A stretch of DNA of 54,551 nucleotides, from NCBI GenBank assembly GCA_030605565.1, contig JAUWIB010000119.1, positions 1 to 54,551 of the forward strand, written 5' to 3'. Made by a program: the position numbers and the translations under genes. The notes under the pieces are model-generated. The model was not told the origin of the DNA, searched no databases, and saw nothing but the letters and a program-made list of their open reading frames with translations. Source of the stretch: a bacterium (GTDB lineage: Bacteria > Zixibacteria > MSB-5A5 > GN15 > FEB-12). Position 1 is the stretch's first letter. Every line of letters begins with the position of its first letter. This document shows, in pieces, positions 12,254 through 38,132 of the stretch.

Positions 12254-12772
12254 TCAATCCATCAGGATGACAATGTCTTCGGCAATCTCGGCTTTGAACG
12301 GCTGGTCGGCCGGGATTTCACCCTGCCCGCCCTTGATGAAAAGACCGAAAATCAGCAGCCAGGACAGCAGCTTTTTGCCTTTGCCTTCGGCTGAGATTTC
12401 ATCGACTGCCTTGAGCATGATTTTCTTGTCACCCTCAGCCTCGTAATTGCCATCCGACTCCAGTTCCAGAAGTTCCACTACAATCGAACCCGGCTTGCCG
12501 CCGCGCCCTGCCGGCGTGACTGACTTGACTCTGGCCGAACCCGGGGCGCCGGCCTTTACAACCGTAAAGCCGCCGATATCTATCGGGGCATTGAGTCGGA
12601 TCGGTACCAGGTCGCCGGGCGCGACATACTTGGAGGACACATCCTGACTAAATACGATTTCCACCTCATGTCCCTGAGGTAGCTCGATATCAGCCCAGAC
12701 GTTCCCTGTCAACGCCATCAGCAATGCCATGAGAACTGTGGAGCACGAGAGTAGGCACTTAGACTTTCGCAT
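12254..12772 (-). CDS. Exported protein of unknown function, last gene of the T6SS operon
   Basis: 172 residues from ATG 12772, chosen because AAGGAG lies 8-10 bases upstream (a GTG at 12781 is the alternative). The signal peptide is CLLSCSTVLMALLMALTGNVWA. The mature part is beta-rich with VFSQDVSSKYVAPGDLVPIRL and GSARVKSVTPAGRGGKPGSIV. It has a hydrophobic stretch, LLSWLLIFGLFI, near residue 140. I do not recognise the family. It follows the TssM-like gene by 39 bases on the same strand. In canonical T6SS the exported partner of TssM is the lipoprotein TssJ; this protein has no lipobox but could fill that place. That is inference from position only. Confidence 0.6.
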   Translation of the reverse strand: MRKSKCLLSCSTVLMALLMALTGNVWADIELPQGHEVEIVFSQDVSSKYVAPGDLVPIRLNAPIDIGGFTVVKAGAPGSARVKSVTPAGRGGKPGSIVVELLELESDGNYEAEGDKKIMLKAVDEISAEGKGKKLLSWLLIFGLFIKGGQGEIPADQPFKAEIAEDIVILMD

Positions 12773-12811
12773 ATCTGTCACTCCTTGTTTGCGCTTGTTA
12801 AGAGTCCAGGC

Positions 12812-15025
12812 TTACCACTTGGGCAACTTCTTTTTCGGATCCTCCTCAAAGCTGAAACTGATCTGCTGGCCCGTGGCGGTAAGCGTGATGATCTCGGTCA
12901 TTTCGAATATCGCGAAGTCGCTGGTTAATTCAGCCAGCGCCTTGTATGTCTCACCCCAACTCTCATCCTCCCCGCCATGATCCTTTTCATGCAGGGCAAT
13001 ATAGATGTGATCGCCGGCTCTCCAGATGATACTGGCCGGTCGATTCAGACGAATCTGCTGCGGTCGCGGCCACTCGTCCGGCTTGCCCTTGCCAACCACC
13101 TTAATATGGACATGATGTCCCGGCGGACAATTGGAGAGGGTGAAACGATACTCACGGTTTTTGTCGAAATTCTTAGCATCTTTCAGGAACTTGTCGATGC
13201 GAGCGACATCTTCCTGTCGGTCCGGGTCGGAGGCCAGTTGTCTACGATAACTTCGGAGTTTCTTAACGGCGGTTCCCAGCAAGAAGGCGGGGTCGGTTTC
13301 CTCGGAAAGCCTCGCAGAGAACTGATCGAATTCACCTGTAGTTTTCTGATGCACGACCTCGCGCTTCTGTTCCAGCTCTCTGGAGTTGACGATTCCAAGC
13401 ATGGTCGCACCGAGTTGTTTGATCTCAGCCGATGGTTTCGGAGTCATGGTCGGATAGAGCTCGACTTGGCGAACAATCGCATCCCAGGCGTCCTGCGATT
13501 CACGCTGAACAAGGGCAGCCTTGAAAAGATCCCACAATTCGAGAGCTCTGGTGCTTCGGGTTTGCAGCGATGATCCATCCGGCGCCTGTGTGTAATGACG
13601 GACGCCGCTTTCCAGCTTTGCCGTCTCCTCTGTCGTCACCACCGTGTCTCCGGTCGGCGCGACTTTGGGCCATCGGGTGGAGTCACGGACGATGTTAGTC
13701 AATTGTCCGATCGACTTCGCCAACTTCTGGAGATCGACGTCCTCGCTGATGGTATTATAGTAATCATAGACATAACTTGCCTGCACGGCGAAATCCTGGA
13801 ATACCCAATTGGTGAATTTCGAACGCGCGTACGAGTTGTAAGCCGTACGGAGATCGAGGCGTCCTTTTTCCGGAATCTCGTGAACCGTTCCTTTGCCTTC
13901 CCAGAGCCGATCCTCCAATGCCGAAATGCGATTCAGTTTCAGATGGAAACTGTATAGATGCGGCGCCGACCAGACGGCGGCAAAGATGAGACTGAACACG
14001 ACGGCGTATTTCGCCAGTTTTCTGAAAGCGACCAGACGGCGGTTGCGTATGATTGACTTCAGCAACCAGTAGAACGGTTCCCTCACGCCTATCGGTTGCA
14101 TCTTGTCGGGTGGTTTGTAGAGCGACCGGCCGACATCGGTGCCGATCTTGGTCGGCTCGACGCCGGTGTTCGAAGTGAAGAACACCTGAAAGTCCAGGGT
14201 GCGACCGATGACCAGCTTGAGGAAGTCTTTGAGCTTGACCAGGATGTCTCGCACCGAGCCGGCCCAGGCGGAGTTGGAGGCGATCCGGTTCGAGGCGAGG
14301 ATGTTCTCAAGGAACAACTCGTAATCTTCGGCCAGGAGATGCTCCTGATCGCTCCGGACCAACACCGTTTGGCCTTCGCCGGAGAAGCCCGGCAATACAT
14401 CGGCCTTGGTAACTACCAAAGCCACCGGAATCGGTAGTCGCCCGCCAGCCGGGGCCAGCATCTCGAGCATATTGACAAACGAGGCAACATGAGCCTGACA
14501 CTGCAACTCGGCGCCGAGGACCTTGGGATCGAAAAAGAACAGAAGCCCCTGACAGCCATACATGAAATCCCTGACCTTGTCGGCCAGTTCGTGTCGCTCC
14601 TGTATCGAGACAGCCTTGCCGTTGTAATCGTAGGTGATGATCGGGATGTTTTTTGAGCGATCGAGGATGACGTTGAACTGAAGGATCTTCTCACTCGGGG
14701 TGGACGGCGGAAACTGTTTATCCTCGCGCAGGTCCACCATCGTACCGGCACTGTCGGACGTCCCCAGTCCCCACAGCGCTCGGTAGTTGGCCAGAAACTC
14801 TCCGGCTGTGATGTTGTCGGTGACCGAGAGGCCGAGGTTTTTCGATACCTTGCACTCCTCGTTGAGCACTGTGAAGTAAACTGTCTTGCCGCTGTTGCTG
14901 TGGCCGAAGACGCCGATCCGCATCCCCGATGGCCAGTCGAAACCACCGCCGACCACCTGGTCTTTGCCTTTGGGGGCTGCCTTGGCGCCCTTCTTGAACA
15001 GCTTGAATATCTTGCCCAGTTTCAC
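12812..15025 (-). CDS. TssM-like membrane GTPase of the T6SS
   Basis: 737 residues. The N-terminal cytoplasmic domain is a Ras-like (TRAFAC) GTPase: Walker A GHSNSGKT (41-48), DYNG (133-136, G3 position) and TKAD (206-209, G4 position). One membrane helix lies at ~338-357 (KYAVVFSLIFAAVWSAPHLY). Beyond it are a long helical region and a beta-rich C-terminal domain (NCPPGHHVHIKVVGKGKP). This topology of NTPase, membrane helix, helical periplasmic part and beta domain parallels TssM/IcmF, but the sequence is not an obvious IcmF protein and is shorter (TssM is usually ~1100 residues). Its place beside TssL-like and TssK genes supports a membrane-complex role. A GTPase switch controlling assembly is possible. 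Confidence 0.6.
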   Translation of the reverse strand: MKLGKIFKLFKKGAKAAPKGKDQVVGGGFDWPSGMRIGVFGHSNSGKTVYFTVLNEECKVSKNLGLSVTDNITAGEFLANYRALWGLGTSDSAGTMVDLREDKQFPPSTPSEKILQFNVILDRSKNIPIITYDYNGKAVSIQERHELADKVRDFMYGCQGLLFFFDPKVLGAELQCQAHVASFVNMLEMLAPAGGRLPIPVALVVTKADVLPGFSGEGQTVLVRSDQEHLLAEDYELFLENILASNRIASNSAWAGSVRDILVKLKDFLKLVIGRTLDFQVFFTSNTGVEPTKIGTDVGRSLYKPPDKMQPIGVREPFYWLLKSIIRNRRLVAFRKLAKYAVVFSLIFAAVWSAPHLYSFHLKLNRISALEDRLWEGKGTVHEIPEKGRLDLRTAYNSYARSKFTNWVFQDFAVQASYVYDYYNTISEDVDLQKLAKSIGQLTNIVRDSTRWPKVAPTGDTVVTTEETAKLESGVRHYTQAPDGSSLQTRSTRALELWDLFKAALVQRESQDAWDAIVRQVELYPTMTPKPSAEIKQLGATMLGIVNSRELEQKREVVHQKTTGEFDQFSARLSEETDPAFLLGTAVKKLRSYRRQLASDPDRQEDVARIDKFLKDAKNFDKNREYRFTLSNCPPGHHVHIKVVGKGKPDEWPRPQQIRLNRPASIIWRAGDHIYIALHEKDHGGEDESWGETYKALAELTSDFAIFEMTEIITLTATGQQISFSFEEDPKKKLPKW

Positions 15026-15063: not shown

Positions 15064-15999
15064 TCACCCGCCTCCTTGCAGCTCGGTGAGATGGTCATGC
15101 ATCTGCTCCAGACGATCCTGCTTGTACTGGCTCCACTTAATCGGAACGTACAGCGCAAAAAGTAGAAATAACACAATGATAATGCTGTAGAAGGCGTAAG
15201 CTGGACTGCGCTGAGTCAGCGACATGCGAAAGTATCTCGAACTTGAAAAAACGCCCTTGATCTTACCGCCCAAGGTGCTAAGAAAACTCTTCACCCGCGA
15301 CCAGAAACCGCCGGCTTTGATTACGTATTGCCAATCCTTAAGGTACCAGTCGAACAGCGGACTGCGCTGGGCCATTTTGGAGAATCCTTCAATGCGATGC
15401 ATATGGAACTCGAGGGTGGAGCGGTCCTGCATGAGTTCGCTGCCGATTTGGAGGCGACGTCGTGCCAACTCCTGAAACTTCAGCGGGTCACTCAAGGCCG
15501 CAAACGCCTCCGGGTTGAGATCGGTCTTCAGGGGCTTGCCGTAGGTGTTCATATAGCGCGCTATCTCCGACAAAAAGAAAGCGTTGAGCGGGAAGTTGTT
15601 GTTGAGGGCTCCATCTCGAAACAGCAGCGGCACGAGGTGGTTCTCAAAGAACGGCACATCCTGCTTGACGGCGCGAAGCCCCCGGCAGTAAGTGTACGAC
15701 CGGTTGGACTGACCATCGATATCCGCCTCTGCCTCAAAGAACGAAACCAAAACCTGAACCGTCAGTTGCCGCAAGTCGGAACTTGTCAGCGGCGCCTGCT
15801 TTATCTTATCGAGCAGGAATTGATCGAGTTCCACCGCCTGGTCGCGCTGCTGACGCAAAGCCTGAAAGACGGCCCCGATACCATTGTATGTCTGCAAGAA
15901 AGCCTCGGTGGCAAACTGCTGGGGGTCTTGCTCGAAACTCTCCAGATATCTGAAAATATCCTCAACATATGTTTTGACAGCGATACGGTTGTTCATCAT
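15064..15999 (-). CDS. TssL-like T6SS membrane protein
   Basis: About 311 residues. Start uncertain: ATG 15999, ATG 15996 or TTG 16005 all lie within a few bases of GGAG. The long N-terminal part is helical and soluble (VEDIFRYLESFEQDPQQFAT, LTVQVLVSFFEAEADIDG). A single hydrophobic helix (AFYSIIIVLFLLFALYVPI) lies ~30 residues from the C-terminus. A cytoplasmic helical domain with one C-terminal membrane anchor is the design of TssL/DotU, and the gene lies between tssK and the TssM-like gene. Direct similarity to TssL is not evident to me, so this is a call by topology and context. Confidence 0.5.
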   Translation of the reverse strand: MMNNRIAVKTYVEDIFRYLESFEQDPQQFATEAFLQTYNGIGAVFQALRQQRDQAVELDQFLLDKIKQAPLTSSDLRQLTVQVLVSFFEAEADIDGQSNRSYTYCRGLRAVKQDVPFFENHLVPLLFRDGALNNNFPLNAFFLSEIARYMNTYGKPLKTDLNPEAFAALSDPLKFQELARRRLQIGSELMQDRSTLEFHMHRIEGFSKMAQRSPLFDWYLKDWQYVIKAGGFWSRVKSFLSTLGGKIKGVFSSSRYFRMSLTQRSPAYAFYSIIIVLFLLFALYVPIKWSQYKQDRLEQMHDHLTELQGGG

Positions 16000-16006
16000 C
16001 TCCAAC

Positions 16007-17455
16007 TCAGATCGCGTATACGATCAAATCCATTTTTGACAGGTTTGTGAATCTCTGACTATCGTCGGCGCCACGGAAAATAAGTATAATCTGGTTTACC
16101 GACGGCGACTTCAGCATGTCCTGGGGGTGCAGCGCCACTTTGTTGCCGTAAGTTACCACGTCGATCTCCACCGGGTCGGTTTCACCAAGACCGCGAGCCT
16201 CATTCAGCCCCAGTCGCACCTGCATACTGGTCCATCGAGCGGCGTCGAACAGATCCTTGTTCAAGAGGACCACGGTGTCACTCATAGCGCGCGCATCGGG
16301 AACATCGATCAGCAGGTAACACAGTTCACCCATAACTTCCGTTTGACAGCCACCATAGTCAACCACGCGGTAAGTCTGTCCGTGATAAGTAAGGGTGTCG
16401 GAAGCCACCGCCTGATCGCCGAGCTGTTCCTTCTTGACCTGGGCCAGAAAACCGAAGACGCCACGCACCTGGCTCAGAATGTCGTCAATAGCCCGGACGT
16501 GGCCGCCGATATCAATATGATTGTAGTCGGCCAGCAGGAAGGCATCGACCTGCGACATGAAGCGACCCACCTCGGAACTCATCTCCTTGATGAAAAAGCG
16601 TTCGTTGAGCAAGTCCTTCAGCCCCGGTTGGAGGTTCAAAAGAGTCGTGAAGGAACGGAACAGTCCCTTGAAGAACATCACCAGGTGAATCGGATGCCCG
16701 GCGTTCTTACCGACCACGTAGCTGTCAAGCGTCGAGGACAGGTGGTAGGCGAACTGATAGATAGTATCCTTGAAAGCCTGCTGCAGTTCAGTCCGCTCAC
16801 CGGAGAGCGCGCCACCAGCGCAAACAGCCATGTATGCGCGTGACGATAACGACAGGAGATTCTCAAGCCGGTTGCGATAGTCAAGACTCTTGGAGGTCAG
16901 TTGTTCGTCGGCATAGAGTGTGACACAGGGCGGGTAGTAGTGCTCGGCTGGAGTGACGTTGCCGCTGTTGACGGACAGTTCGGCGATTTGGAGGCAGCGT
17001 CCCTCGGGCAGATTCGGCGGGGTGCCCAGGGTCAGCAGATAGTTCCCCGTTAGGTATGGCAGGCGGGGGAGATCTTCGTGGGGCTCCGGGTCGCCAACCT
17101 GTTTGCGAGCGGTTGCGTCGATGCCGATGTACACCGGAACCTTGTCGCCGCTGACTTCACCATCCGCGCGAACGGCGGTCTGGTTGTTTTCGTTGATCTC
17201 AATCGCGCCGCCATCGGGGGTCAAGGCCTGACAACGAACCACTTCCACGCGCAGGCGGTTTCCCGACATCGACAAGTTCAGGCTCAAAGCTGGATGGCCG
17301 GAGAACGACTTGCGAATCAAACCGTAGCGATCACCAACGTTGAGCGCATACCAGCGGGCCAGTTCTTCAAAATAGTTCTCCTGGTCCTGCAGATGGCGCT
17401 GGGTGATCAGCATCCCATCCTGCCAGTTAACTGAATATAAGTTCAAGTCAGTCAT
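16007..17455 (-). CDS. tssK: T6SS baseplate subunit TssK
   Basis: 482 residues, slightly longer than usual TssK. The N-terminal signature VNWQDGMLITQRHLQDQENY matches the W-x-D/E-GM-L...H-Q-Q pattern at the start of TssK proteins. The remainder (GGAIEINENNQTAVRAD, YLTGNYLLTLGTPPNLPEG) fits the shell-like and receptor-like domains. TssK trimers link the TssF/TssG wedge to the membrane complex. The ribosome site AAAGGC precedes ATG 17455. It sits between tssG and the TssL-like gene, the order expected of a baseplate-to-membrane segment. The overlap with the next gene is at most a few bases. Confidence 0.85.
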   Translation of the reverse strand: MTDLNLYSVNWQDGMLITQRHLQDQENYFEELARWYALNVGDRYGLIRKSFSGHPALSLNLSMSGNRLRVEVVRCQALTPDGGAIEINENNQTAVRADGEVSGDKVPVYIGIDATARKQVGDPEPHEDLPRLPYLTGNYLLTLGTPPNLPEGRCLQIAELSVNSGNVTPAEHYYPPCVTLYADEQLTSKSLDYRNRLENLLSLSSRAYMAVCAGGALSGERTELQQAFKDTIYQFAYHLSSTLDSYVVGKNAGHPIHLVMFFKGLFRSFTTLLNLQPGLKDLLNERFFIKEMSSEVGRFMSQVDAFLLADYNHIDIGGHVRAIDDILSQVRGVFGFLAQVKKEQLGDQAVASDTLTYHGQTYRVVDYGGCQTEVMGELCYLLIDVPDARAMSDTVVLLNKDLFDAARWTSMQVRLGLNEARGLGETDPVEIDVVTYGNKVALHPQDMLKSPSVNQIILIFRGADDSQRFTNLSKMDLIVYAI

Positions 17456-17524: not shown

Positions 17525-18475
17525 TCAAACTCCCATTCGTGCCTTGGCGCTGTGGCGGCTTTGCGCAAAGGTAGAGTAGCCGAGAAAGCTCTGACCTCGA
17601 GACGACCCCAGGTTCAGGTCACCCTCGTCCACTTTGATGCGAATCTTGCAGTCCAGGTTCGTCGGCATGCAGATGCTGAGGACCCATTCGATCTTGCGCC
17701 GTTTCGGTTTCCCAGGCAGCAGGTCAGCGACCTCGTCAGGCTTGACGTCGCTGACCGTAAGTGCATAGCTGGAATCATACTCTTGAAAAGAGCGCCCCAT
17801 GACGAGATCATCGCCAAGGCGGCTGTTCCTCCGACCGAGACGACATTGCAGATCAGTCGGGATATCGTACCGGGCTGCGACATTCTCGATGAAGCGAAAG
17901 TCAAACCCCAAAAGGAAGCGCAGCACGTGAGCTACAAACTCGGGGTTGCCGGCCCACAGATGAAACCCCGGCATGATAGCCGCCCACATTAGCGGTTCGC
18001 GTATGTCATCGGGCGGTTCCGGCAGGCTGAAGTTGAACAGTTTCAGATAGCGCAGCAGGTAATCGAGATTGACCAGGGCTAAGGAATACTCCAGTTGCTC
18101 ATGCCTGGCGACGGCGGTGTAACGTATGACCGAGCCGTCGAAAGGCGCCATCAGGTGGCGAGCGTTGTCCTCCCAAACGCGAGCGCCGGCCTGACCGCCG
18201 TGCCAGCCGTAGAAGAACTGGTAGGGCAGCCAGTCGACAGCGCTGGGGAAGCCGACGTCCAGCACGACCGTGGTGCTCTCGTCGACCGGCTTGCCGGCGG
18301 CCGGTTGCTGGCTGAGGATTTCACCCAGGTAATTCCGATGTTCACCAACTGCCCTGATATGAACACGGTGAATATCGATCCCGAGCTTCATCAAAAGCGT
18401 CAGCGCCGTGGCATAACGGAAAGGGTGATGCCGGTTGGTCAACTCCGGCATGATGCGGTGGCCGCTGTTGTTCAT
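17525..18475 (-). CDS. tssG: T6SS baseplate subunit TssG
   Basis: 316 residues. The gene starts inside the stop of tssF (ATGA, 18472-18475), so the two are translationally coupled, as they are in most T6SS loci. Sequence features fit TssG: FFYGWHGGQAGARVWEDN, HVLRFLLGFDFRFIENVAAR, then RLGRRNSRLGDDLVMG leading to a C-terminal beta region with LLPG and a final LGYSTF. Two TssG and one TssF form the baseplate wedge in known systems. A second ATG (MPEL) lies eight codons in. Confidence 0.8.
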   Translation of the reverse strand: MNNSGHRIMPELTNRHHPFRYATALTLLMKLGIDIHRVHIRAVGEHRNYLGEILSQQPAAGKPVDESTTVVLDVGFPSAVDWLPYQFFYGWHGGQAGARVWEDNARHLMAPFDGSVIRYTAVARHEQLEYSLALVNLDYLLRYLKLFNFSLPEPPDDIREPLMWAAIMPGFHLWAGNPEFVAHVLRFLLGFDFRFIENVAARYDIPTDLQCRLGRRNSRLGDDLVMGRSFQEYDSSYALTVSDVKPDEVADLLPGKPKRRKIEWVLSICMPTNLDCKIRIKVDEGDLNLGSSRGQSFLGYSTFAQSRHSAKARMGV

Positions 18476-20136
18476 TTCAACTCTATCTCGACAGCGAATT
18501 GTGTATTAACCGGAGCCCGGGCCTTCAAGAAGTTGGCCAGCCGGATTTTCAGAAGTCCGGTTTCATCTTCACTATGAAAGTCATCCTTGCCCGCGACGAC
18601 GGTCACTACGATACACCGCCGGACGCCCCGTTCGAATCGGTGCACACCGTTGTCGCAGTGAGCATCGGTGATACGAGGATCGAACGAGCGGGCCCAGTTG
18701 GCGATTTCAGCGAAAGTAAGAGCGCGGTCGCGACTCCGCAAACGCGAGGAGGCCTCGGAAACGATTTGTTCTTCGGTCTTGGCCGGTACCGCACCGGCTG
18801 TCGGAATTATGTTGGTGGATGATTCGATACCGGGATGGTTCTCGTACAGTTCGGTTATTTTGTTTGCAGCGATGCCGTTGGCGTCAACCCCGGCTGTAAC
18901 CGTATACGTGACCTTGATAGCATCCGGCGGGTTGTCAACTTCGGTGGTGAAATCAAACCAGAGCGTCAATCTGTCGTCGTGCTCCTCCAACGAGTAGACC
19001 CCCTGGGCCCGATCTGAAAGCACCTGATGAGTGGGGACGTACTCCCGATTGTTGGAGTCAGTGACACTGGTGATCTCAAAGATCGTCGAAATATCATCGG
19101 GAAGTTCCAACTCAACCAGTCGGTTTCCGCCTGTGTGCTTGAACGAGGTCAACTCGGTTTTGTTCACGACGACGAAACAGTCGAAGTAAATGCCCAACGG
19201 TGCAAGCAGTTTCGATCTGTTACCACCCGGTGGGAGGTCGATTCTGATCCAGAACAGGCTCTCCGATGCGGGTGATTCCAATTGGTTCTGCTGGATCAAT
19301 GATGCGAGCGTCTCATCAGCAGGTCCGGAGTCCCAGGTACTGCTGAATTTCTCAGGAAGCACTGCGAAGCTGTCGGCCAGCGGTACGAACAAATCGGAAG
19401 TCGATCGCAGCCCGCCCCAGTCCAATGGTTGGCCGCCGTTCTGAAATATCTGTTCAAGACCAGCGCCCAGTCCGGGACAAAACCCGCTATCTTCGTAGAA
19501 CGACCCAAAGTGACTGCCCGGATACCAATAGGACCAACGTAATTGTCTCAAGGCTTCCGGGTCTCCGTCCATGAACACCACGGCGTCGGTCAAATTGGCA
19601 CTGGGACCCTGGTACTCTACCGCCACAAACAACTGTTGCGCTTCGCTGGCCTCGGCGCCACCCATCGTCGGCGCGCCGCCAACTGGGCTACCTGCGCCAA
19701 GGTCCACCAGTCTGTCGCCGGACCTTAGATAAACATGCTTAATCTCGGCTGCCAGTATTCTCTCGGTACGCAATGGCGAGAAGAACAGTGTCTGCCCGCC
19801 TTCCCGTTTTTCCTTGAAGAAGAACCGGGTGTTAGGGTCTACTTCGACCGCCGGATCAGTCGGCCGACAACGCATCACGGTAAAGGCCGGGACCGGCCAG
19901 CGGCGGCACTCCGGGGCCAGCGATCTGATGAGCGACGTGGTCGCCACATCCCAGGTATGTCCGACTTTGCTGTCGATCGAGGCAAGCTGGCTGGCGTACA
20001 TCTGCATCAGTATCCGCAGAATCGGATCCAGTCGTTCCGATGACTCCGGAATCTCAGAGTTGAATGATCGCAGTTCGCGGTGCATCTGGGCGAAAATGCG
20101 CTCGGCCGATCGAGGTTCGCGTGACTCCATGTTCAT
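18472..20136 (-). CDS. tssF: T6SS baseplate subunit TssF
   Basis: 554 residues, close to the usual 580-620. The N-terminus has the TssF-type helical start with RLDPILRILMQMYASQLASI, followed by SLAPECRRWPVPAFTVMRC, the conserved region after which the wedge domains begin. A later portion has LFWIRIDLPPG and the gp6-like C-terminal helices (TFAEIANWARSFDPRITDAH). It is the core of the baseplate wedge with TssG and TssE. ATG 20136 or 20130. It is separated from tssE by 120 bases holding two REP-like hairpins, an unusually long gap in an otherwise tight operon. Confidence 0.85.
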   Translation of the reverse strand: MNMESREPRSAERIFAQMHRELRSFNSEIPESSERLDPILRILMQMYASQLASIDSKVGHTWDVATTSLIRSLAPECRRWPVPAFTVMRCRPTDPAVEVDPNTRFFFKEKREGGQTLFFSPLRTERILAAEIKHVYLRSGDRLVDLGAGSPVGGAPTMGGAEASEAQQLFVAVEYQGPSANLTDAVVFMDGDPEALRQLRWSYWYPGSHFGSFYEDSGFCPGLGAGLEQIFQNGGQPLDWGGLRSTSDLFVPLADSFAVLPEKFSSTWDSGPADETLASLIQQNQLESPASESLFWIRIDLPPGGNRSKLLAPLGIYFDCFVVVNKTELTSFKHTGGNRLVELELPDDISTIFEITSVTDSNNREYVPTHQVLSDRAQGVYSLEEHDDRLTLWFDFTTEVDNPPDAIKVTYTVTAGVDANGIAANKITELYENHPGIESSTNIIPTAGAVPAKTEEQIVSEASSRLRSRDRALTFAEIANWARSFDPRITDAHCDNGVHRFERGVRRCIVVTVVAGKDDFHSEDETGLLKIRLANFLKARAPVNTQFAVEIELK

Positions 20137-20631: not shown

Positions 20632-20639
20632 CGGTTCGG

Positions 20640-27660: not shown

Positions 27661-27661
27661 T

Positions 27662-28612: not shown

Positions 28613-28643
28613 AAAACGATACCACCATAAGGGGCTCAGTCGG

Positions 28644-30176: not shown

Positions 30177-31073
30177 TCAAGTGGCGTGGTATTGATTCTC
30201 TCCACGGTCATCAAAACTGATGGTTATACTACCGGGAGGGACGTTTTCCTCTCTGGCCCGGCCGTCACTGTCGAGCGTCCCGGTCCTTTCCTGCCCGTCG
30301 GCCGTCCGCAAAGTGTATTTCTTGTCGGCTACCGGCTCGCCGCGGATGTTGACGAGGCTAATGTTGACCCAGTCCTTGAACTCCAGCAAGCCCGACTCCT
30401 GCTTTTTGCCGTACTCGACGCCTTCTGCCTTGATCGTGAAAAAGTACTCCGGGGGGTTGTACTGGCCATCGTACTTGTCGAGTTCCTCTTGCGAGGGGAT
30501 TTCGTCCGTGTCCTCGTGGTACTCGTACTCCCATGCGATCTCGATGCGATCGTTTTCCACCTGTGCCGGTAGTTCAGTGATGCGGTCATTCCTGCCGTCC
30601 CGATCGTACTCATAAATAACCACGGCCAGTTCGGCCTCGTTGGGCAAACCACTAATATCAGCCGAGAGTGTCAAGGTGTCTCCGCGCCGCGCTTCCTGTG
30701 CGCTCCATTTGAGATTGGAAACACGAACCGGGGGATAGGCCGGGATGTGTTCGGACTCGCCGTCGAGACTGTTCCTGGACAGCTTCGCCTCGAAAAAGAC
30801 CTTGTCGCCAAGCTCAATGTCTTCGGGAATCTGAAAGGCTCCACCGAAATGATTGCGTCGCATGACGCCGCTGACCTTACCGAGTTTCTTGCCGTTTTCG
30901 CTCGTGCCTTTGACCTTGATCGGCGCGCCCTCGCCGACCAGTTCAGTTAACACCTCAAAGCTCGCCGTCTGCCCGCCGATAGCCATGCCGCACGTCCACG
31001 AGACCGAGATCAACGACGAATCCAGCTTGACCTCGTGCTCGCTGTCGGTACTCTTGGTGAACTTTAGCGCCAT
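30177..31073 (-). CDS. Beta-rich T6SS adaptor-like protein with transthyretin-like C-terminus
   Basis: 298 residues, no signal peptide. The middle (~115-240) and the C-terminal ~65 residues are paralogous to the C-terminal half of the PAAR protein at 37038. Compare LKWSAQEARRGDTLTLSADI with AEWSTEEAAVGDVVQLKADC, LLEFKDWVNISLVN with LLKFQDWIELRLRD, and GTLDSDGRAREENVPPG with GTLDGDGYAKVENLPPG. The last module resembles transthyretin or carboxypeptidase-regulatory folds, which some spike proteins use to attach effectors. It is encoded just before the metzincin, so it may load that protein onto the spike. It lacks a PAAR domain of its own. Confidence 0.55.
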   Translation of the reverse strand: MALKFTKSTDSEHEVKLDSSLISVSWTCGMAIGGQTASFEVLTELVGEGAPIKVKGTSENGKKLGKVSGVMRRNHFGGAFQIPEDIELGDKVFFEAKLSRNSLDGESEHIPAYPPVRVSNLKWSAQEARRGDTLTLSADISGLPNEAELAVVIYEYDRDGRNDRITELPAQVENDRIEIAWEYEYHEDTDEIPSQEELDKYDGQYNPPEYFFTIKAEGVEYGKKQESGLLEFKDWVNISLVNIRGEPVADKKYTLRTADGQERTGTLDSDGRAREENVPPGSITISFDDRGENQYHAT

Positions 31074-31096
31074 GGTAGTGATCTGCCTTACATCCG

Positions 31097-31519
31097 CTAT
31101 CCGGGAATAAACTCAGCGATCATGCGGTCGACTTCCACGCCGAGCGTCTTGATCGTCTTCTTGGTGAAAGTCGCGTTGAAGTTGTACATCACGTCGTCGT
31201 GCTTCACGAAGACCATTTTCTGAAACACGACCTTGTCTTCCGACGGCGCCCACTTGTAGACAGCTTCGTAAGCCGGAACGCTGCCCGGTAGTTGTTTCTC
31301 TTCTTCCTTGAGAATCTCCACACCGGGGATGCTCTCAAGAACCTGATCGATCCGCTCGCGGGCGTAGTCGGCGAGTTCGTCGGTGTTGGGCTGAGGGTCG
31401 ACCTGAAGCGACAAGCTATGTTGCAAGCCACTCTCTTCGGGACCCATGAAATAGTGCACGGTCTGGTCTTCCCAGCCGTCGGGGAGTTCAATCCTGAATC
31501 TGTTGTTGCTCGGACTCAT
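31097..31519 (-). CDS. DcrB/DUF1795-like protein, candidate effector chaperone
   Basis: 140 residues, no signal peptide. FRIELPDGWEDQTVHYFMG, VLESIPGVEILKEEEKQLPG, FQKMVFVKHDDVMYNFNATF and the final VDRMIAEF fit the PsbP/DcrB-like fold of DUF1795. In known T6SS this fold makes Eag proteins, cytoplasmic chaperones that shield the hydrophobic segments of PAAR- or Rhs-linked effectors. It lies in the effector cassette 24 bases before the adaptor-like gene. I see no obvious pre-PAAR transmembrane segments in its neighbours, so what it would chaperone is open. Confidence 0.6.
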   Translation of the reverse strand: MSPSNNRFRIELPDGWEDQTVHYFMGPEESGLQHSLSLQVDPQPNTDELADYARERIDQVLESIPGVEILKEEEKQLPGSVPAYEAVYKWAPSEDKVVFQKMVFVKHDDVMYNFNATFTKKTIKTLGVEVDRMIAEFIPG

Positions 31520-31534
31520 ATTTTCGTACTCAAT

Positions 31535-32791
31535 CTATTTCAGACAGTGTATCCCGTCGCTGCCGCCATAATAAACCCTACCATCTTCATCCATGATCGG
31601 CCGGGTGCCGATCGGCGTGTCCAGCCATTTGGTGAGAATTTCCTCACCGGTAGCAGAAACATGTACCAAGGCCGTACCTGCGGCGGCCAGCACCGAGTTG
31701 TCGGCCAGTACGGTGATGGCGATGTCGTCCACCGAAGCCGGCAGGGGATACGTCCAAATGATCTCACCATCGCGAATCTGGTGCAGATTGCTTCCCACCA
31801 CCATATATACAAATCCATCCAGTGAAGATGCAGGCGGTTGGTTTGATGGCTGACCCTGTTCAAATGACACCACCCAGCCGACCTCGCCGCTTGGTGCTAC
31901 TTGCTTAAGCTGGGTAACATTTTCGACAATGTCAACAACCAACGCGTTGCCGTCGGCATCCAAAGAGAACGAACTGATGGAGTCGAACTCGACCTCGCTG
32001 ACCTGTTCGTCCGATTCGGCATCAATGGGGAAGGCATGAAACCGGTTGGTCGTGAACATGTAAACGCGCTTGTTGTCTCTCGTCACAAGCGTACCGCGAC
32101 CGATTCCTTCGATCCGATAACGCCAGATTACTTCACGGCGTTCAGCGATATACCGCAGGAATTGGAATGGCGGTATCTCCATTGTCTGACCGGGCGCGTT
32201 GGTCGGTTTGGGATAGGCTTGTGAACTGTAAATCGTCTCACGCTTGAGATCGCGGATGAAGTGCAGTTGCGTGTGCTGGTTCACGCCGGTCAGGGGCTTT
32301 TCTGCTGCCGGCTGTCCGTCATATCCCAGCAGAACGAAGTAGCCGACATGGTCTAAGGTGACAATGCCATCGTCCGTGATGGTCGAAGCGTAATTGCTCC
32401 TGACCTGTCGAGTCCAGTTGACGGAGCCGTCATTTCGGTCGAGCACCGCTACCAGATCGCCGTAACTGACAAACAGATGTTGTCCGCGCAGGCCGAGATG
32501 TATGGGGCTGCGTCCGCCGCCGGGTTCGAGTAATGATTCGCGGAACCATACTTCGTTACCCTGGATCGTGCCGCTCACCGGCAGGTAAGAACTGTTTTGT
32601 TGATCACCGAAAACACTGCGGTTGAGCGTGGCGATATCAGGCATGTTGGTCTCCTCGATACCCGCAGGGGTGTGTGAATGTCTCCCGGCCACACAGCAGA
32701 CAACGAGCACACCGATCAGAACCGCTGTGTATGCTGCCCGCACGGCATAACCGCCTCCGGAAAACTCCGGGCCCGAACTTTGTTGTTTCAC
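31535..32791 (-). CDS. Exported PQQ-type beta-propeller protein, candidate immunity
   Basis: 418 residues starting at GTG 32791 (GGTGGT nearby). A membrane-targeting segment (AAYTAVLIGVLVVCCVAG) near residue 20-38 predicts a periplasmic or anchored protein; it has no proper lipobox. The rest is beta-propeller-like with PQQ-type blades (GDLVAVLDRNDGSVNWTRQV, REVIWRYRIEGIG, RDGEIIWTYPLP, ATGEEILTKWLD). No enzyme motif was seen. It follows the OmpA/metalloprotease gene on the same strand, where an immunity protein is expected. Propellers can also be binding scaffolds, so this role is only a guess. Confidence 0.55.
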   Translation of the reverse strand: MKQQSSGPEFSGGGYAVRAAYTAVLIGVLVVCCVAGRHSHTPAGIEETNMPDIATLNRSVFGDQQNSSYLPVSGTIQGNEVWFRESLLEPGGGRSPIHLGLRGQHLFVSYGDLVAVLDRNDGSVNWTRQVRSNYASTITDDGIVTLDHVGYFVLLGYDGQPAAEKPLTGVNQHTQLHFIRDLKRETIYSSQAYPKPTNAPGQTMEIPPFQFLRYIAERREVIWRYRIEGIGRGTLVTRDNKRVYMFTTNRFHAFPIDAESDEQVSEVEFDSISSFSLDADGNALVVDIVENVTQLKQVAPSGEVGWVVSFEQGQPSNQPPASSLDGFVYMVVGSNLHQIRDGEIIWTYPLPASVDDIAITVLADNSVLAAAGTALVHVSATGEEILTKWLDTPIGTRPIMDEDGRVYYGGSDGIHCLK

Positions 32792-32892
32792 TGACCACCA
32801 CCGTTGTCTCTTCTTTCCAAACTTCCTGTTTCTTTTGATCTGTGTCTACTTATAAAATCCAGACTACTCTGTCCCGCTGACCGGTGCTTCCA

Positions 32893-35800
32893 CTATGGTG
32901 TCGTTGTGGTCGCACTGGGCGCCGGGATTCGCTCCAGCGTGTACGATGCGTTTAGTTTTCCATTTACCCAGGTTTCAATGAATTTCAGAGCCTCAAGCTG
33001 GTCCTCGCCGGGAGCCATGTTCAGGAAATGAAGTTGAAGGTCGTCGGCTGTAATGTTACGAGGTACGTTCAACACACAGGTACTACTGGTCAAACGGTCG
33101 ACCGATGTGCTTTGTTGGTACAGATTGTCCACCGCCGTTTGATCGGCGGCGACAGTGAACAGTCCACGCAACTGGGTCTTTTCACCCGTAGTCATCCTTC
33201 CCTCGAACGACAGCCGATGGGCGGTGGCGTCATACGATGCGTCGGTCACCACTGTTGAGGGGTCTGAACTCGGAGCGTTGGCTACCGTTACTGAAAAGGT
33301 TGTGGTCGAGCGCTGAAAAGTCAACTTGTAACTCCAGGTGCTTCCGGCCGCGCGTTCATCGGCGAAACCTGGTATGAAATACATGAAAACGCGCGAGAAC
33401 TCCGCGGGTCCACCGGTCAACCGGTAGGAACCGTTAAGACGCTGCCACTCCTGTTGAATAGCGACCAGCTTGTCATTCAGTTCCGTGTACTCCGGGTCGG
33501 TTTCCCAGTCTGCCTCAGTCGCGTCCCCTTTTATGCTTAACATTACGCGCACCACCAGCACGGCATGGTATTCATCAGTCTGATTGTCGTGAAAAAACTT
33601 CGTCGAGGATTCGTCCTGTCCCACGTCATAGATGGCAATGTGGACGCGACGAAGTGACTGGGTTTTCTGGTAGAGACGGCTGACTTTGGCCTTGTTGTCG
33701 TCACCGGTAAAAGCGCCGCGCCAGGCGTCCCGTTCCGCCGTGCTCATAGCGCCGGCAGCAATGTCGTAGGTAAGCGTATTGGCGGACGCATCGTGGGTAA
33801 AGTTTGTCTGGTGGGCGGCACTGACTGATGACAGATCGGGCGCAGCACTCACCGAGACGACATTGGGCAACCGCAATCGTTCCTCGACCGTCATTGGCTG
33901 GCGGATGTCGTCCTTGGTTTGAGGAGTATTGGCTGGGGGCGGTGAGACGGTCCCGGACGGTGTCCAGTTGAGATGCCTCTTGTAGATCAACTCCGGTGTG
34001 GCATTGTCGAATTTCACCTTAAAGGCTTTGCCATTCAACCAGGTCGCATCGTTGAGACCGCCACCGCTCAGTGAGTTCTTGTTTATCAAGTGCAGGTGGT
34101 ACCAGCAGTGGTGCAACCGGGGCGCACCGTTGTAATACATCATCGAAGTCTGGTTAGTGGACGGATTGTACTGAACGAAAAACTGATCGAAGCCCGGCAT
34201 TCCCTTGGTGATGTACATGCGGGCCGGAGTGGCACTGTCCTGTGGATCCACATCCTGAGTGTACTCGTCGGAGAGGCTCGTGACGTGGCCCAGCTCGTGG
34301 GCGAGCGTGAAAACACCGTAGCGGGTGCCATCTTCCTGATAGCCCGTATTGTTGTAAGCGAAAATCCCCGTTGTTATCTGGTAGGCCGACTTGTTCAGGA
34401 GCATGAGCGAATGGGGCAGGGTATAGGCGCCGGAGGTCAATCCGCGTACTGCCCAGGCGTAAGCTATACCGTAGTTGACGCCGGCCGCCTGATCGGGGCA
34501 GACAAAAGCTACGAACTTCACCGGTCCACCAAAGGTACGTCTCTGCGCGGTCCGGAAATTCGATCCGGCGCCAAACAGCGCCCGATGATTGGATAGGGTC
34601 CCAAAGTCCGTGTTGGTCGGCAGTTCGGTCAGCGGCATAGTGAACGTCTCGCGCTCATCGAAAAACACAAACCGTCTGATGATGGCGTAGGCATCGCCGG
34701 TGTCGCGTTCTTCGATGAAGTAGTAGCCCTTCCGGTTCCAGTACTCCTGCGCGTTATAGACACCCTGGTGTACGAAATTGTCGACATCGCTCATACCCGG
34801 ATTCTGCGAAGCGCTGGTCCATGCGGCCGCGCTGGGATCCTGCCGGGGGTCAAGCATAAAGTTCATCGTGGCACACACGATGAGCAAACTGACCGGGTGA
34901 TTGCCCTCCAGGTTTATCTGGTGGAAATAGTGCACATCGTAGTCGCCGGTGTAGCTCTTCTCGTGATGGTTGTATTTCATCTCCCACTTTTTGTGCCGGT
35001 CGGGATCATCGCGCAGGGCGATTCGGGCGCCAACGACGTAGGCGCCCTGGTTGCCGGTTTTGTCCATCCAGTCACCGGGCTGGTCGGTCGTGCGGCGGTC
35101 GCCGACAGTGTAGAAGCCATCGCGAAAATGAACGACCTTAACAGCGGGCGCCATGCCGCTTACCAGATTTCTCTCCAGCCTTATCCGCTCTGCGCGCGTT
35201 GTAGTCGAGGAACCTGAGCCACCACCGCCTGAGCCACTGGAGGGAGGTGGGGGGGTTAAGGAGGTGCGATCTTCGTTCGGTCTTTCCCACAACTTGAACT
35301 GATTGGTCGTACTGTCCACCACAAATAGTTTCACGCGCGAGCCGGGATCGGCTGCTCCGGCGCACAAGGCCTTGGCTGTCCCTAACTGGTCGGCATCCTG
35401 TATGTTCTGATCGTGGCCGGTGGCGCTGTCCATAAGCACAATATCGTCCAGTGAGAACATCAACGGTTCGCCTTGACTGGTTACGTTGCTCCCGAACGGT
35501 TTTAGTTGCCGCTTGTCTTTGATATGCTCGTGGAATCGTTCGTCATTGGCATGGGTGCTTTCGTGCCTCGTATGCCAGTTGTGTGAAAACCACTTCATCG
35601 GGAGATCGTAGTACTGGTGTTTTTCGGCGAAGGTCTTGGTATCCCAATCGTCCGGGCGGTTCACGATCACGGGTGTCGCATCCGGCCCCGAGGTGTGGAT
35701 CATCCGAACGACCGGTGTGCCGTCGTGCTCGGGCGCTTCAAAGCCAAAGTAGAGCCACTTGTCGGTGAAGACCGGATTCTCCTCGCCGAATCTGACACGC

Positions 35801-37017
35801 ACGCTGTGTATTCCGTTTTGATACTGGGTGATGCAGGGGATCTCTTCGACCGTGCTCCCGATCGCCGCGTCTCGTTTGTACGCTTTGACGTTCACGCGAC
35901 CGGGAATGTCCTGAAAGTCCTTCTTGATCCGGTCGTAGTAGCGAAACTTCAAATGATATACCACCGCGAACCGGTCACCCGGGCCGATATAGTTGCGTGA
36001 GAAATGGCGCTCGTGCCACATCGGACAGTCGTTCTCAAGATCATGCACGGTCGAAATCGGCATAGTCGGACATACCACCAGGGCGTCACTTTCGGAGTCG
36101 TTCCCCTGGTATATGAGAAGTTCTATACGGCTGTCCGTGGCTGATCTGATCTTGTCATCACCACGTTCGGAATCCGGCACGGCATACGAATGACCACAAC
36201 CAACCATCTTGACCATGTCGCTGACCCAGTTCAGGTCTAAACTCATATCGGCCAGTTCGGTGCGTGTTTTGCCGAGGAAATCGCATACCATCAGTTCATA
36301 GACACTGTACAAAGCCAGCCAGTGACCGGCTGAGAGACGATTGTCGGTTGCTTCGCTAATGATATCACCAAGAGTCGCGGGCAACGGTGCAATCTCTTCT
36401 GAATCATCCGCAATATCACTATTGAAATGCGTGGCGAAATTGTTCAGCGCTGTTTGGGTAGCCTCGTTGAAACTGTTGTCGACATCACCCGGATCGCATT
36501 CCCAATCGCCGTCTTTCCATGATCCAGTGTATTCGTGGAGATACTTCAGTATCTGCTTGTAGTCCTCAACCGTGTGCCGCCCGGCGCATGTCAGAGCCCA
36601 ACGCGCGTCATTTCCCTGCAACATGTACATGACGCATGAGGCGCGCTCGCGTGAAAGGCGAAAACTCTCCGGCACATCACTCTGAGATGCCGTGTGACCG
36701 GTAATCAGTATTCCGCGCTCCGGATACATGGCAGCAAAAAGAAAAGCCATGCCGATCGCCTTGACCCCGGTCATCGGTGCGTTATCGGCAATCGGATCCA
36801 ACCCCGGCACTTCCGGCAGCATGACAGCGCTGTTGTCATGGAAAAGAAGGTCTTCGAATTCGAGGATATCGACCGGGATAGGGGTGAGAGTAGTTTCGGT
36901 TGTGGTGCCCGTGATAGCGTCAGTCCCGACTGAGGCAGCCGCAGAAGTGGTCGTAGTACCTGCCGGAGTCCCGCCCCCACCGCTTGTGGTGCCGCTGCTT
37001 TCCGGGTCGCCAGTCAT
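32893..37017 (-). CDS. Giant putative T6SS effector: OmpA-like domain plus zinc metallopeptidase
   Basis: 1374 residues with no signal peptide. After a Thr/Gly-rich start, an OmpA-like peptidoglycan-associating domain lies at ~90-160 (GILITGHTASQSDVPESF, LSRERASCVMYML) and a possible peptidoglycan-binding segment follows (KQILKYLHEYTGS ... NEATQTALNNFATHF). The central peptidase carries HELGHVTSLSDEY: His907, Glu908, His911 and Asp917 as likely third ligand, near the M64-type pattern, followed by SMMYYNG as a possible Met-turn. The C-terminal region has two related ~45-residue units (TLTYDIAAGAMSTAERDAWR; RLSFEGRMTTGEKTQLRGLF). It is encoded between the PAAR spike and the propeller protein. 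Peptidoglycan docking plus proteolysis is the likely mode. Confidence 0.65.
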   Translation of the reverse strand: MTGDPESSGTTSGGGGTPAGTTTTSAAASVGTDAITGTTTETTLTPIPVDILEFEDLLFHDNSAVMLPEVPGLDPIADNAPMTGVKAIGMAFLFAAMYPERGILITGHTASQSDVPESFRLSRERASCVMYMLQGNDARWALTCAGRHTVEDYKQILKYLHEYTGSWKDGDWECDPGDVDNSFNEATQTALNNFATHFNSDIADDSEEIAPLPATLGDIISEATDNRLSAGHWLALYSVYELMVCDFLGKTRTELADMSLDLNWVSDMVKMVGCGHSYAVPDSERGDDKIRSATDSRIELLIYQGNDSESDALVVCPTMPISTVHDLENDCPMWHERHFSRNYIGPGDRFAVVYHLKFRYYDRIKKDFQDIPGRVNVKAYKRDAAIGSTVEEIPCITQYQNGIHSVRVRFGEENPVFTDKWLYFGFEAPEHDGTPVVRMIHTSGPDATPVIVNRPDDWDTKTFAEKHQYYDLPMKWFSHNWHTRHESTHANDERFHEHIKDKRQLKPFGSNVTSQGEPLMFSLDDIVLMDSATGHDQNIQDADQLGTAKALCAGAADPGSRVKLFVVDSTTNQFKLWERPNEDRTSLTPPPPSSGSGGGGSGSSTTTRAERIRLERNLVSGMAPAVKVVHFRDGFYTVGDRRTTDQPGDWMDKTGNQGAYVVGARIALRDDPDRHKKWEMKYNHHEKSYTGDYDVHYFHQINLEGNHPVSLLIVCATMNFMLDPRQDPSAAAWTSASQNPGMSDVDNFVHQGVYNAQEYWNRKGYYFIEERDTGDAYAIIRRFVFFDERETFTMPLTELPTNTDFGTLSNHRALFGAGSNFRTAQRRTFGGPVKFVAFVCPDQAAGVNYGIAYAWAVRGLTSGAYTLPHSLMLLNKSAYQITTGIFAYNNTGYQEDGTRYGVFTLAHELGHVTSLSDEYTQDVDPQDSATPARMYITKGMPGFDQFFVQYNPSTNQTSMMYYNGAPRLHHCWYHLHLINKNSLSGGGLNDATWLNGKAFKVKFDNATPELIYKRHLNWTPSGTVSPPPANTPQTKDDIRQPMTVEERLRLPNVVSVSAAPDLSSVSAAHQTNFTHDASANTLTYDIAAGAMSTAERDAWRGAFTGDDNKAKVSRLYQKTQSLRRVHIAIYDVGQDESSTKFFHDNQTDEYHAVLVVRVMLSIKGDATEADWETDPEYTELNDKLVAIQQEWQRLNGSYRLTGGPAEFSRVFMYFIPGFADERAAGSTWSYKLTFQRSTTTFSVTVANAPSSDPSTVVTDASYDATAHRLSFEGRMTTGEKTQLRGLFTVAADQTAVDNLYQQSTSVDRLTSSTCVLNVPRNITADDLQLHFLNMAPGEDQLEALKFIETWVNGKLNASYTLERIPAPSATTTTP

Positions 37018-37037
37018 CTATCTTACCAACCGTCGGA

Positions 37038-38132
37038 TTACGGTTGTCCCTGTTCTCGCACATTATAAGACACTCTGGTTCTGCCCGGCGGGAGGTTCTC
37101 CACCTTGGCGTAACCGTCGCCGTCGAGGGTGCCTTCTTTTATTTCACCGTTGGCGCAGTGAACGCGATAAGGCCGATTGCCAATGCTGTTGCCTGCCTCA
37201 TCCCGGAGTCTTAGTTCGATCCAGTCCTGAAACTTCAGGAGCTTCGACCGAGCCGAACATCCACCGGCCTTGGCCTCGAAGTAGTAAGCGGGCGAGGAGT
37301 AACCCTGACGCGCAGCCCGTTCATTCTGGACCGGTAGCAGGTCTTCGTTCAACTCAAACGTCCAGTCCGCCTCGATCTTGTCGCCGTCAACTTCGGACTC
37401 GATGACTCTAATCTTGCGGTCCGGCGCATTGAGATCCCTCAAATAAATGGTCAGGGTAGCCGGTGTGCCCGGTTCCATGCCCGAGCAGTCTGCCTTGAGT
37501 TGTACCACGTCGCCGACCGCTGCCTCCTCCGTTGACCATTCCGCTTTGGAAATAACTCTGAGTTCGATGTCGTAGCTGCCCGCCTCGATCCCGGTCTTGC
37601 TTACGCGTCCGGTCAGGACACCCTCGTCTATGGTAGCACCAGACTTGGCGAGACTATAGGCCACACCCATCACCGGGAAACCGCCCTTGTCGACGAAATC
37701 CACATGGAGAAAATGTTCCTCGCCTTCACTCTCCAGTTCGGTTGAAGCCCCGGCCTCGTCGCCTTCCGCACCCTCTTGTTGTGCCCCGTCTGCTCCCGGT
37801 GTTCCGGCTCCTGCGCCACCGCCGCCGCCGGGTCCGATCAACACGGTCGGCTCCCCGGGCGGAGCGATAGTATCCGGTGGACCGACACAGGTGGCCATGT
37901 CGCCCACGCACGCGGCCGGCACACCGCCGATCAAGACGGTCACTGCTCCGGGTGGCAGGATCGGTCCGCCAACATGCGGGATCGGCGTCGGGGCCGGGGT
38001 TTGCATGGGACAAGTGTGCATATCGCCTACTCTCGCAGCCGGTTTGCCGCCGATCAGCACGGTCGGGCATCCCACTACAATGCTGCCTCCGTGCACTGTC
38101 ATGTCGCCCATCCGTGCGGCCGGTTTACCCAT
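37038..38132 (-). CDS. PAAR spike-tip protein with transthyretin-like C-terminus
   Basis: 364 residues. Residues 1-110 are PAAR repeats (GKPAARMGDMTVHGG; PTVLIGGKPAARVGDMHTC; VTVLIGGVPAACVGDMATC) with the Cys/His ligands expected of the zinc-bound cone that caps VgrG. A Gly/Ala-rich acidic linker follows at ~110-150. Residues ~155-364 are two beta domains paralogous to those of the 30177 protein. The last one (GEIKEGTLDGDGYAKVENL) is of transthyretin type, a fold that can hold effectors on spikes. AAAGGA precedes ATG 38132. It is the first gene of the cassette behind the promoter at 38184-38213, so it probably delivers the next-encoded OmpA/metalloprotease. Confidence 0.85.
   Translation of the reverse strand: MGKPAARMGDMTVHGGSIVVGCPTVLIGGKPAARVGDMHTCPMQTPAPTPIPHVGGPILPPGAVTVLIGGVPAACVGDMATCVGPPDTIAPPGEPTVLIGPGGGGGAGAGTPGADGAQQEGAEGDEAGASTELESEGEEHFLHVDFVDKGGFPVMGVAYSLAKSGATIDEGVLTGRVSKTGIEAGSYDIELRVISKAEWSTEEAAVGDVVQLKADCSGMEPGTPATLTIYLRDLNAPDRKIRVIESEVDGDKIEADWTFELNEDLLPVQNERAARQGYSSPAYYFEAKAGGCSARSKLLKFQDWIELRLRDEAGNSIGNRPYRVHCANGEIKEGTLDGDGYAKVENLPPGRTRVSYNVREQGQP

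Follow-up and report, generated by a model that had tools for sequence, protein, structure and literature searches.

We describe a type VI secretion system (T6SS) encoded by a locus of about 26 kb on the minus strand of a contig from a Zixibacteria bacterium (assembly GCA_030605565.1, contig JAUWIB010000119.1, positions 1 to 54,551; this whole stretch of 54,551 nucleotides is called the window below, and its genome comprises 3.39 Mb in 152 contigs). We judge the system to be a new T6SS variant, in which a tail of the type known from Bacteroidota (T6SSiii) is combined with a GTPase-based membrane module of its own. Quite probably, it is a contractile weapon whose T6SSiii-type tail is docked on a membrane complex of a TssL-like protein and a TssM-like DO-GTPase, a pair that would replace TssJLM or TssNQOPR. 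It appears to be neither of the two established types: not a T6SSi, because it has no DotU profile and carries a T6SSiii-type tail, and not a T6SSiii as defined, because it has no TssN. From its parts, we infer that it works like a T6SS.

The 20 open reading frames (ORFs) at 12254-38132, all on the minus strand, were scanned against Pfam and NCBIfam. TssB, TssC, TssD, TssE, TssG, TssK, VgrG, PAAR and both halves of ClpV were recognised by family matches, and TssF, which is without a Pfam match, was identified mainly by profile comparison with Bacteroidota TssF. The genes for TssB, C, D, E, F, G, H, I and K are found together, which places the locus within type VI, and every gene that a previous sequence-only reading had named for a ~26-kb minus-strand T6SS locus was confirmed at its stated position. 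As that reading had also noted, no tssA or tssJ was evident; neither family was among the matches up to E 1 of the 20 locus genes. The VipB model PF05943 had no match in the whole genome (the E. coli control was positive). Because the core intergenic gaps are only -4 to 120 bases, we take the core genes to form a complete operon on a single strand. The core genes and the genes next to them are as follows.

12254..12781, minus strand: exported 175-aa protein with a signal peptide, candidate periplasmic partner; in the main group of relatives its gene immediately follows tssM-like
12812..15025, minus strand: TssM-like protein; GTPase (residues 35-305), one transmembrane segment (TM; ~337-355), followed by a helical part and a beta region at the C-terminus (AlphaFold2)
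15064..16005, minus strand: TssL-like protein; helical cytoplasmic domain and one C-terminal TM (271-289) (AlphaFold2)
16007..17455, minus strand: TssK, baseplate (PF05936, E 5.7e-6; TIGR03353, 1.8e-13)
17525..18475, minus strand: TssG, baseplate (PF06996, E 4.8e-17)
18472..20136, minus strand: TssF, baseplate (no Pfam match; profile comparison)
20257..20643, minus strand: TssE, baseplate, gp25 (PF04965, 7.7e-13)
20640..22427, minus strand: VgrG/TssI, spike (PF04717, PF05954)
22509..22919, minus strand: TssD, tube protein of T6SSiii type (PF17642, E 1.9e-21; the sole PF17642 match in the genome)
23013..24431, minus strand: TssC, sheath of T6SSiii type (PF17541, E 5.7e-70)
24456..24896, minus strand: TssB, sheath (PF05591, 2.9e-6; profile comparison)
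24927..26024, minus strand: ClpV half 2, second AAA+ domain with Walker A
26021..27475, minus strand: ClpV half 1, Clp_N and first AAA+ domain with Walker A
37038..38132, minus strand: PAAR, spike tip with a C-terminal extension (PF05488, 1.6e-23)

The tail was placed by profile-profile comparison, with pairwise E values and with reference numbers equalised for TssB, TssC, TssF and TssK. The T6SSiii references numbered five in the tree and up to six in the profiles (eight for TssD at first) and the T6SSi references nine and up to 14 respectively; five DO-GTPases made up a further profile. TssC matched T6SSiii at 2.5e-64 and T6SSi at 0.02, a result unchanged after a rogue fused 1249-aa protein (L109) was dropped from the T6SSi TssC profile. 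The same direction was seen for TssB (3.6e-27 against 1.4e-7), TssK (1.4e-30 against 1.4e-14), TssF (8e-30 against 1.1e-7) and TssD (2.2e-22 against 0.49, the latter with one Hcp reference only). Judged by these profiles, TssB, C, D, F and K clearly resemble the T6SSiii of Bacteroidota more than T6SSi; TssG was compared with T6SSi only, and the T6SSiii affinity rests on the five. The PF17642 match of TssD bears out the T6SSiii pattern that had been noticed in the tube from the letters of the sequence. One finding speaks against calling the tail simply 'iii': the new TssB, TssF and TssK also match T6SSi, at 1e-7, 1e-7 and 1e-14, whereas the Bacteroidota profiles match it less well (6e-5, 0.007 and 4e-12); perhaps this reflects profile depth, or a real intermediate place.

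Relatives were collected by a scan of contigs with an alignment of the TssM-like protein and two short peptide patterns, in which 222 stretches yielded 53 loci. In a concatenated tree of 42 new rows (34 distinct) with nine T6SSi sequences as outgroup, the five Bacteroidota references formed a clade of their own with a support of 1.0 in this small reference set, and the new rows lay outside it. The window group is thereby excluded from the clade of the Bacteroidota references; its TssB and TssC lie on the T6SSiii side but did not fall inside a known subtype with the same gene set. The new loci themselves made three deep branches, namely the main group, family f5 and families f15/f16. Support for a clade of all new loci was 0.109 in the concatenated tree, 0.955 for TssB and 0.63 for TssC, and the Bacteroidota sequences lay among the new loci in the trees of TssF and of TssK. 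The proposal that this is a separate T6SS subtype thus holds as far as the position outside the Bacteroidota clade and the lack of TssN, O, P and R go; a single clade of all new loci is not supported by the concatenated tree.

Of the membrane set of T6SSiii, none of TssN, O, P and R was detected. TssN was found in 0/129 genomes of the window's phylum, with a model that detected it in 3/3 Bacteroidota control plasmids, and phmmer searches with TssN, O, P and R queries from Bacteroides and Capnocytophaga matched nothing in the window or the new loci. As a control, the queries of these two genera found each other for TssN, P and R, and for TssO weakly.

The 737-aa TssM-like protein gave an AlphaFold2 model with a pLDDT (predicted local confidence) of 83.1, and the region beyond its TM is periplasmic by predicted topology; a single TM was found in 49/52 distinct TssM-like sequences. 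Among the structures listed, the GTPase fold of the model was closest to Arl3 (Z 15.9, 161 residues, 2.2 A), and residues G41, K47, D133, G136, K207 and D209 were invariant in 38 members. The structures listed for the model were GTPases, and the periplasmic part was barely probed by them; a PDB sequence search with the TssM-like profile gave ten weak matches, mostly GTPases, with a best E of 0.035.

DO-GTPase2 (PF19993) matched all 20 TssM-like members scanned with Pfam (E up to 1), at best with 6.1e-8; the window protein scored 22.8 bits, below the curated cut-off of 27. Across the phylum, with 20 candidates scored per genome, DO-GTPase2 was found at E<=1e-5 in 13/129 genomes, in each case in the TssM-like gene, and the curated cut-off was passed in 13/129. 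In pairwise profile-profile comparison the TssM-like GTPase domain matched the five cyanobacterial DO-GTPases at 5.7e-19 and the excised IcmF GTPase domain at 3.4e-6; full-length TssM-like against IcmF gave 2.2e-4, and IcmF against the DO-GTPases 2.5e-4. On this profile evidence the TssM-like GTPase belongs with the DO-GTPase2 family and has a weaker relation to the GTPase of IcmF/TssM. The combination of a T6SSiii-like tube with a membrane complex of its own kind, as put forward in the sequence-only reading, is supported, with the amendment that the GTPase is related to DO-GTPase2 first and to IcmF second, and so is not wholly of its own kind. Plasmid searches with the window TssM-like protein and with that of L052 found none, and the L049 protein found three remote GTPases. 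Separately, a Haliovirga abyssi plasmid (L158:14944-17067) encodes a 707-aa GTPase protein resembling TssM-like, with no annotated T6SS gene nearby.

The strongest alternative is that the TssL-like and TssM-like proteins are a DotU and an IcmF after strong divergence, so that a tail of T6SSiii type would sit on a T6SSi-type membrane complex. In its favour are the same K-L-M gene order, the same placement of the TM in L and the same succession of GTPase, TM and periplasmic part in M, as well as the GTPase profile match, a common late motif and the common TKxDxxxGF motif. The latter is present in 43/52 distinct TssM-like proteins and 13/13 IcmFs and not in the G4 stretches of the five DO-GTPases and the Haliovirga protein. 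However, IcmF_N matched the TssM-like members only below threshold, in 11/20 (E up to 1, best 0.0019; 0.12 for the window protein), the GTPase is far closer to the DO-GTPases, the periplasmic parts could not be aligned, and TssM-like proteins are without the two leading TMs that all 13 IcmFs have (in L110 after an extension). The 13 canonical IcmFs matched IcmF_N (best 1.2e-95), with no DO-GTPase2 up to E 0.1. IcmF-related and IcmF_C domains were absent among the 25 families listed of 32 for the 20 TssM-like members; neither was found in the window TssM-like protein, nor IcmF_C in the window's genome.

The TssL-like protein likewise gave no DotU signal. Its gene lies directly after tssK, in the position of TssL, and encodes 313 aa (AlphaFold2 pLDDT 86.7, and pTM, the predicted template modelling score, 0.70). 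A single TM was found in 55/56 distinct TssL-like proteins and in 14/14 distinct DotUs (200-300 aa), near the C-terminus in both. The window protein had no Pfam family match, and DotU matched 0/19 TssL-like proteins in hmmscan. Foldseek returned 291 matches up to E 10 for the model, none at E<=0.001 and the best at 0.55, with no DotU among the best 50; VIA-align gave a best Z of 7.7, which corresponds to helical background, with no DotU chain among the best 50 rows. A PDB sequence search with the TssL-like profile found nothing, and a plasmid search found one weak Enterobacter match (E 0.1). Clear DotU or IcmF matches, which the sequence-only reading had named as the outcome that would count against it, were therefore not obtained, and we regard a diverged DotU/IcmF pair as unlikely, although still a serious contender.

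The new type is coherent and widely conserved, and not a mosaic, as the 'mixed' composition of the sequence-only reading might suggest. The 53 related loci include 32 named Candidatus Zixiibacteriota, one Zixibacteria, two GN15, four Krumholzibacteriia/Krumholzibacteriota (a phylum of its own at NCBI), three under other phylum or genus names and one FCB group; the spread beyond the named phyla is a lower bound, the scan having used two short peptide patterns. In the window's phylum, where many genomes are fragmented and counts are lower bounds, TssL-like was found in 63/132 genomes, TssM-like in 64/129 and T6SSiii-type TssC in 65/129. TssC and TssM-like occurred together in 63, TssC alone in two and TssM-like alone in one. 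DotU was found in 11/129 genomes and IcmF_C in 12/129, and a single searched genome (G083, L136) had both DotU/IcmF and the new type. A gene-order comparison, as the sequence-only reading had proposed, showed the order ClpV1-ClpV2-B-C-D-VgrG-E-F-G-K-L-M-exported protein in 14 close loci, except that TssE was not detected in L045 and two TssD are present in L044; because of this recurrence, a chance association is excluded. The longer loci repeat the core order, with the exceptions of L058 (TssM-like with no upstream T6SS genes) and L098/L099. In f15 it is kept without the exported protein, and in f5 TssE was not detected in L137 and L140. The K-L-M order is also seen in T6SSi loci of the same phylum. 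In the genome of L058 (G078), the TssM-like gene is about 420 kb distant from those for TssL and TssC on one contig, and the TssL match ends at residue 236, which points to a rearrangement or a misjoin.

A second alternative is that the DO-GTPase, with a GAP1 partner, is a regulatory or self-sacrifice switch added to a T6SS, the true membrane complex being something else or absent. In the available text of Kaur et al. (2020, PMC7159879), the DO-GTPase and GAP1 pair is described as a switch of conflict systems with no close relatives elsewhere, and T6SS, TssM and IcmF are not mentioned in that text. A gene for a GAP1-N2-like protein adjoins the tssM-like gene in six deep relatives, and all six are homologous; the two that were scanned matched at 5e-4 and 1e-4, both below the cut-off. 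GAP1-N2 was found at E<=0.001 in 7/129 genomes, of which six are the deep relatives (two of these six above the cut-off), and not in the window's genome. The unlinked TssM-like gene in f16 and the envelope proteins of a neighbouring cluster, which could be the anchor, also speak for such a switch. However, the TssM-like and TssL-like genes sit in the core operon and are present alongside the tail genes in almost every genome, and the neighbouring cluster is missing in 6/22 loci, deep ones among them, making this explanation improbable.

Several points weigh against a membrane complex of the TssL-like protein and the TssM-like DO-GTPase. The tie to IcmF is limited to the later half of the GTPase domain, and the periplasmic part of TssM-like has no detectable relation to IcmF (0.035). 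For TssL-like, similarity to DotU was undetectable by profile-profile comparison (hhalign E 0.25), and neither structure search gave a neighbour above background among the best 50 rows. The domain packing of the TssM-like model is uncertain (pTM 0.52), and the contacts of TssK with the pair and of L with M are presumptive. In f16 (two genomes; L048, L098 and L099), the TssM-like gene sits apart from the operon, near a PAAR gene homologous to that of the window with one opposite ORF between them, and in G078 it is separated from TssL and TssC by ~420 kb of one contig. Finally, all 53 relatives come from metagenome-assembled genomes or bins.

Two further alternatives are very improbable. Contractile sheaths, VgrG, PAAR and AAA+ proteins are also common to extracellular or cytoplasmic contractile injection systems (T6SSiv-like), and TssC weakly matches phage-like sheaths too, but the locus has TssK, TssF, TssG and ClpV, a single TssD/TssC pair with T6SSiii profiles and, among the 20 genes scanned, no second sheath or tape-measure family. 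An ordinary Bacteroidota T6SSiii gained by horizontal transfer would explain the T6SSiii-type TssB, C, D, F and K, but hardly the separate Bacteroidota clade (support 1.0), the lack of TssN, O, P and R or the wide spread in the phylum.

ClpV is encoded by two ORFs with a 4-base overlap, as had been read from the sequence. Among the relatives with a complete locus it is split in 18/22 and fused in four (families f15/f16); 14 loci with an edge fragment only were left out of this count. The spacing between the halves varies (-4, -1, -52, -88 and +37 to +75), and each half carries a Walker A motif. Because the split is kept in relatives, we consider it real and reject a frameshift or assembly error. 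Among the papers listed for a split ClpV, no fitting precedent was found, as judged by titles and the openings of abstracts. In a different setting, ClpV and TssF are each in two pieces on a Runella plasmid (L106), which is probably a decaying T6SSiii.

The span from 27662 to 37017, upstream of clpV, is probably a variable module of cargo and not part of the machine, because its gene content differs among relatives; the earlier view of the whole span as a T6SS locus applies to the core genes. It contains the following.

27662..28702, minus strand: 346-aa ORF with an uncertain start, candidate immunity protein from its position beside a probable effector
28644..30149, minus strand: HExxH protein (HEVGH at 415), candidate metalloprotease cargo, no significant family
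30177..31073, minus strand: protein with a domain common to the PAAR C-terminus (34% identity, E 7e-33)
31097..31519, minus strand: DcrB-family protein (PF08786, E 1.8e-15), likely effector adaptor
31535..32791, minus strand: beta-propeller protein (PF13360), membrane-anchored or exported (hydrophobic segment 16-34)
32893..37017, minus strand: 1374-aa candidate effector with an HELGH zinc motif (weak TIGR03296, 1.9e-4)

The two HExxH proteins (28644-30149 and 32893-37017) are candidate metalloprotease effectors. We take the DcrB family to be that of the Eag effector chaperones, which would make the 31097-31519 protein Eag-like. Homologues of the 30177..31073 protein sit upstream of clpV in several relatives.

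At the downstream end of the operon, the 175-aa exported protein has no significant Pfam family, no lipobox was seen in the 22 sequences aligned of 45 listed, and it did not match a TssJ profile of two references (E 0.056). Farther along lies a cluster on the plus strand, counted in 22 loci with at least 8 kb beyond the TssM-like match.

1863..3371, plus strand: Ser/Thr protein kinase with a PEGA domain, possible regulator (PF00069, 7e-45; 15/22 relatives)
3448..4500, plus strand: CsgG-like exported protein, possible outer-membrane partner (PF03783, 4.7e-13; 16/22)
4504..5853, plus strand: TPR and CsgG-like lipoprotein (PF07719, 2.3e-15; PF03783, 1.7e-5; 16/22)
5840..6952, plus strand: 370-aa predicted exported protein, signal-like N-terminus, no Pfam match (16/22)
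6962..7804, plus strand: 280-aa lipoprotein-like protein, lipobox-like N-terminus, no Pfam match (16/22)

The order of the cluster is kept, on the opposite strand, in the six relatives examined (L057, L060, L065, L072, L084 and L095), and loci without it include L082, L087 and the deep L097-L099. The cluster may contribute a part in the outer membrane as well as control by the kinase. Between the cluster and the T6SS, 8115-11771 encodes a large, secreted protein of beta-helix type that carries a type IX-like sorting domain.

Taken together, these parts suggest a cell-anchored, contact-dependent contractile weapon. The TssD tube, the TssBC sheath and a cargo-bearing VgrG/PAAR spike, with probable metalloproteases, would assemble on the TssEFGK baseplate, which would dock, probably via TssK, on an inner-membrane complex of the tail-anchored TssL-like protein and the TssM-like DO-GTPase. 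The periplasmic part of TssM-like and the exported 175-aa protein, perhaps with CsgG-like lipoproteins, would form a bridge in the direction of the outer membrane. By binding or hydrolysing GTP, TssM-like would probably gate docking or firing, GAP1 may modulate TssM-like in the deeper relatives, and the two-piece ClpV would recycle the sheath. Of this scheme, the gene content, its conservation, the family relations and the predicted topologies are observed; the joining of L and M into a membrane complex, the GTP-dependent gating, the partners at the outer membrane and the role of the cargo are presumptive.

The available text of Bongiovanni et al. (2024, PMC10781749) confines T6SSiii to Bacteroidota and makes the TssNQOPR complex obligate for it. 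Three scenarios are given there for the origin of this complex, with replacement versus double gain left open; T6SSiii is likewise reported only in Bacteroidetes in the part available of Abby et al. (2016, PMC4793230). The accessible text of another source (PMC9113992) gives T6SS types i-iv and seven phyla, the Zixibacteria phylum not among them. The system was not found in the literature on type VI in Zixibacteria or Krumholzibacteria or, among the papers listed, in that on DO-GTPases and on broader terms, in a coverage outside which most subscription journals and preprints lie. As far as we have seen, the combination of a Bacteroidota-like barrel with a different GTPase at the predicted anchor is undescribed. 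Because the locus joins a T6SSiii-type tail, from which TssN, O, P and R are missing, to an L-M pair with distant links to T6SSi, it can now be tested whether the membrane complex was replaced or gained twice. Tentatively, and short of an even chance, the system may have a third kind of membrane complex, with a DO-GTPase as its power source or gate, which would link the IcmF/TssM GTPase with the DO-GTPases; the ancestral T6SS would then have had a GTPase-based L-M complex that TssNQOPR later replaced in Bacteroidota. The DO-GTPases, predicted switches of conflict systems, would gain a possible defined machine, and T6SS surveys that rely on models of DotU/IcmF or TssN would probably overlook or misclassify such loci.

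Compared with known systems, the locus is closest to T6SSiii (Bacteroidota, Bacteroides fragilis type) in TssB, C, D, F and K and shares with it the absence of TssA, TssJ and DotU, but differs in having a TssL/M-like pair and a split ClpV, in being without TssN, O, P and R and in lying outside the Bacteroidota clade. With T6SSi (Pseudomonadota, TssJLM) it shares the K-L-M order, a DotU-like topology, the GTPase-TM-periplasm order and weak GTPase homology, whereas its tail is of the other branch, it has no DotU profile, TssJ or TssA, and its M is without the two leading TMs. The DO-GTPase/GAP1-N2 conflict systems (Kaur et al. 2020) resemble it in the GTPase family and, in six deep relatives, in the GAP1-N2 neighbour; unlike in those systems, the window GTPase lies inside a contractile secretion operon, with a periplasmic domain of its own and no GAP1 at the locus.

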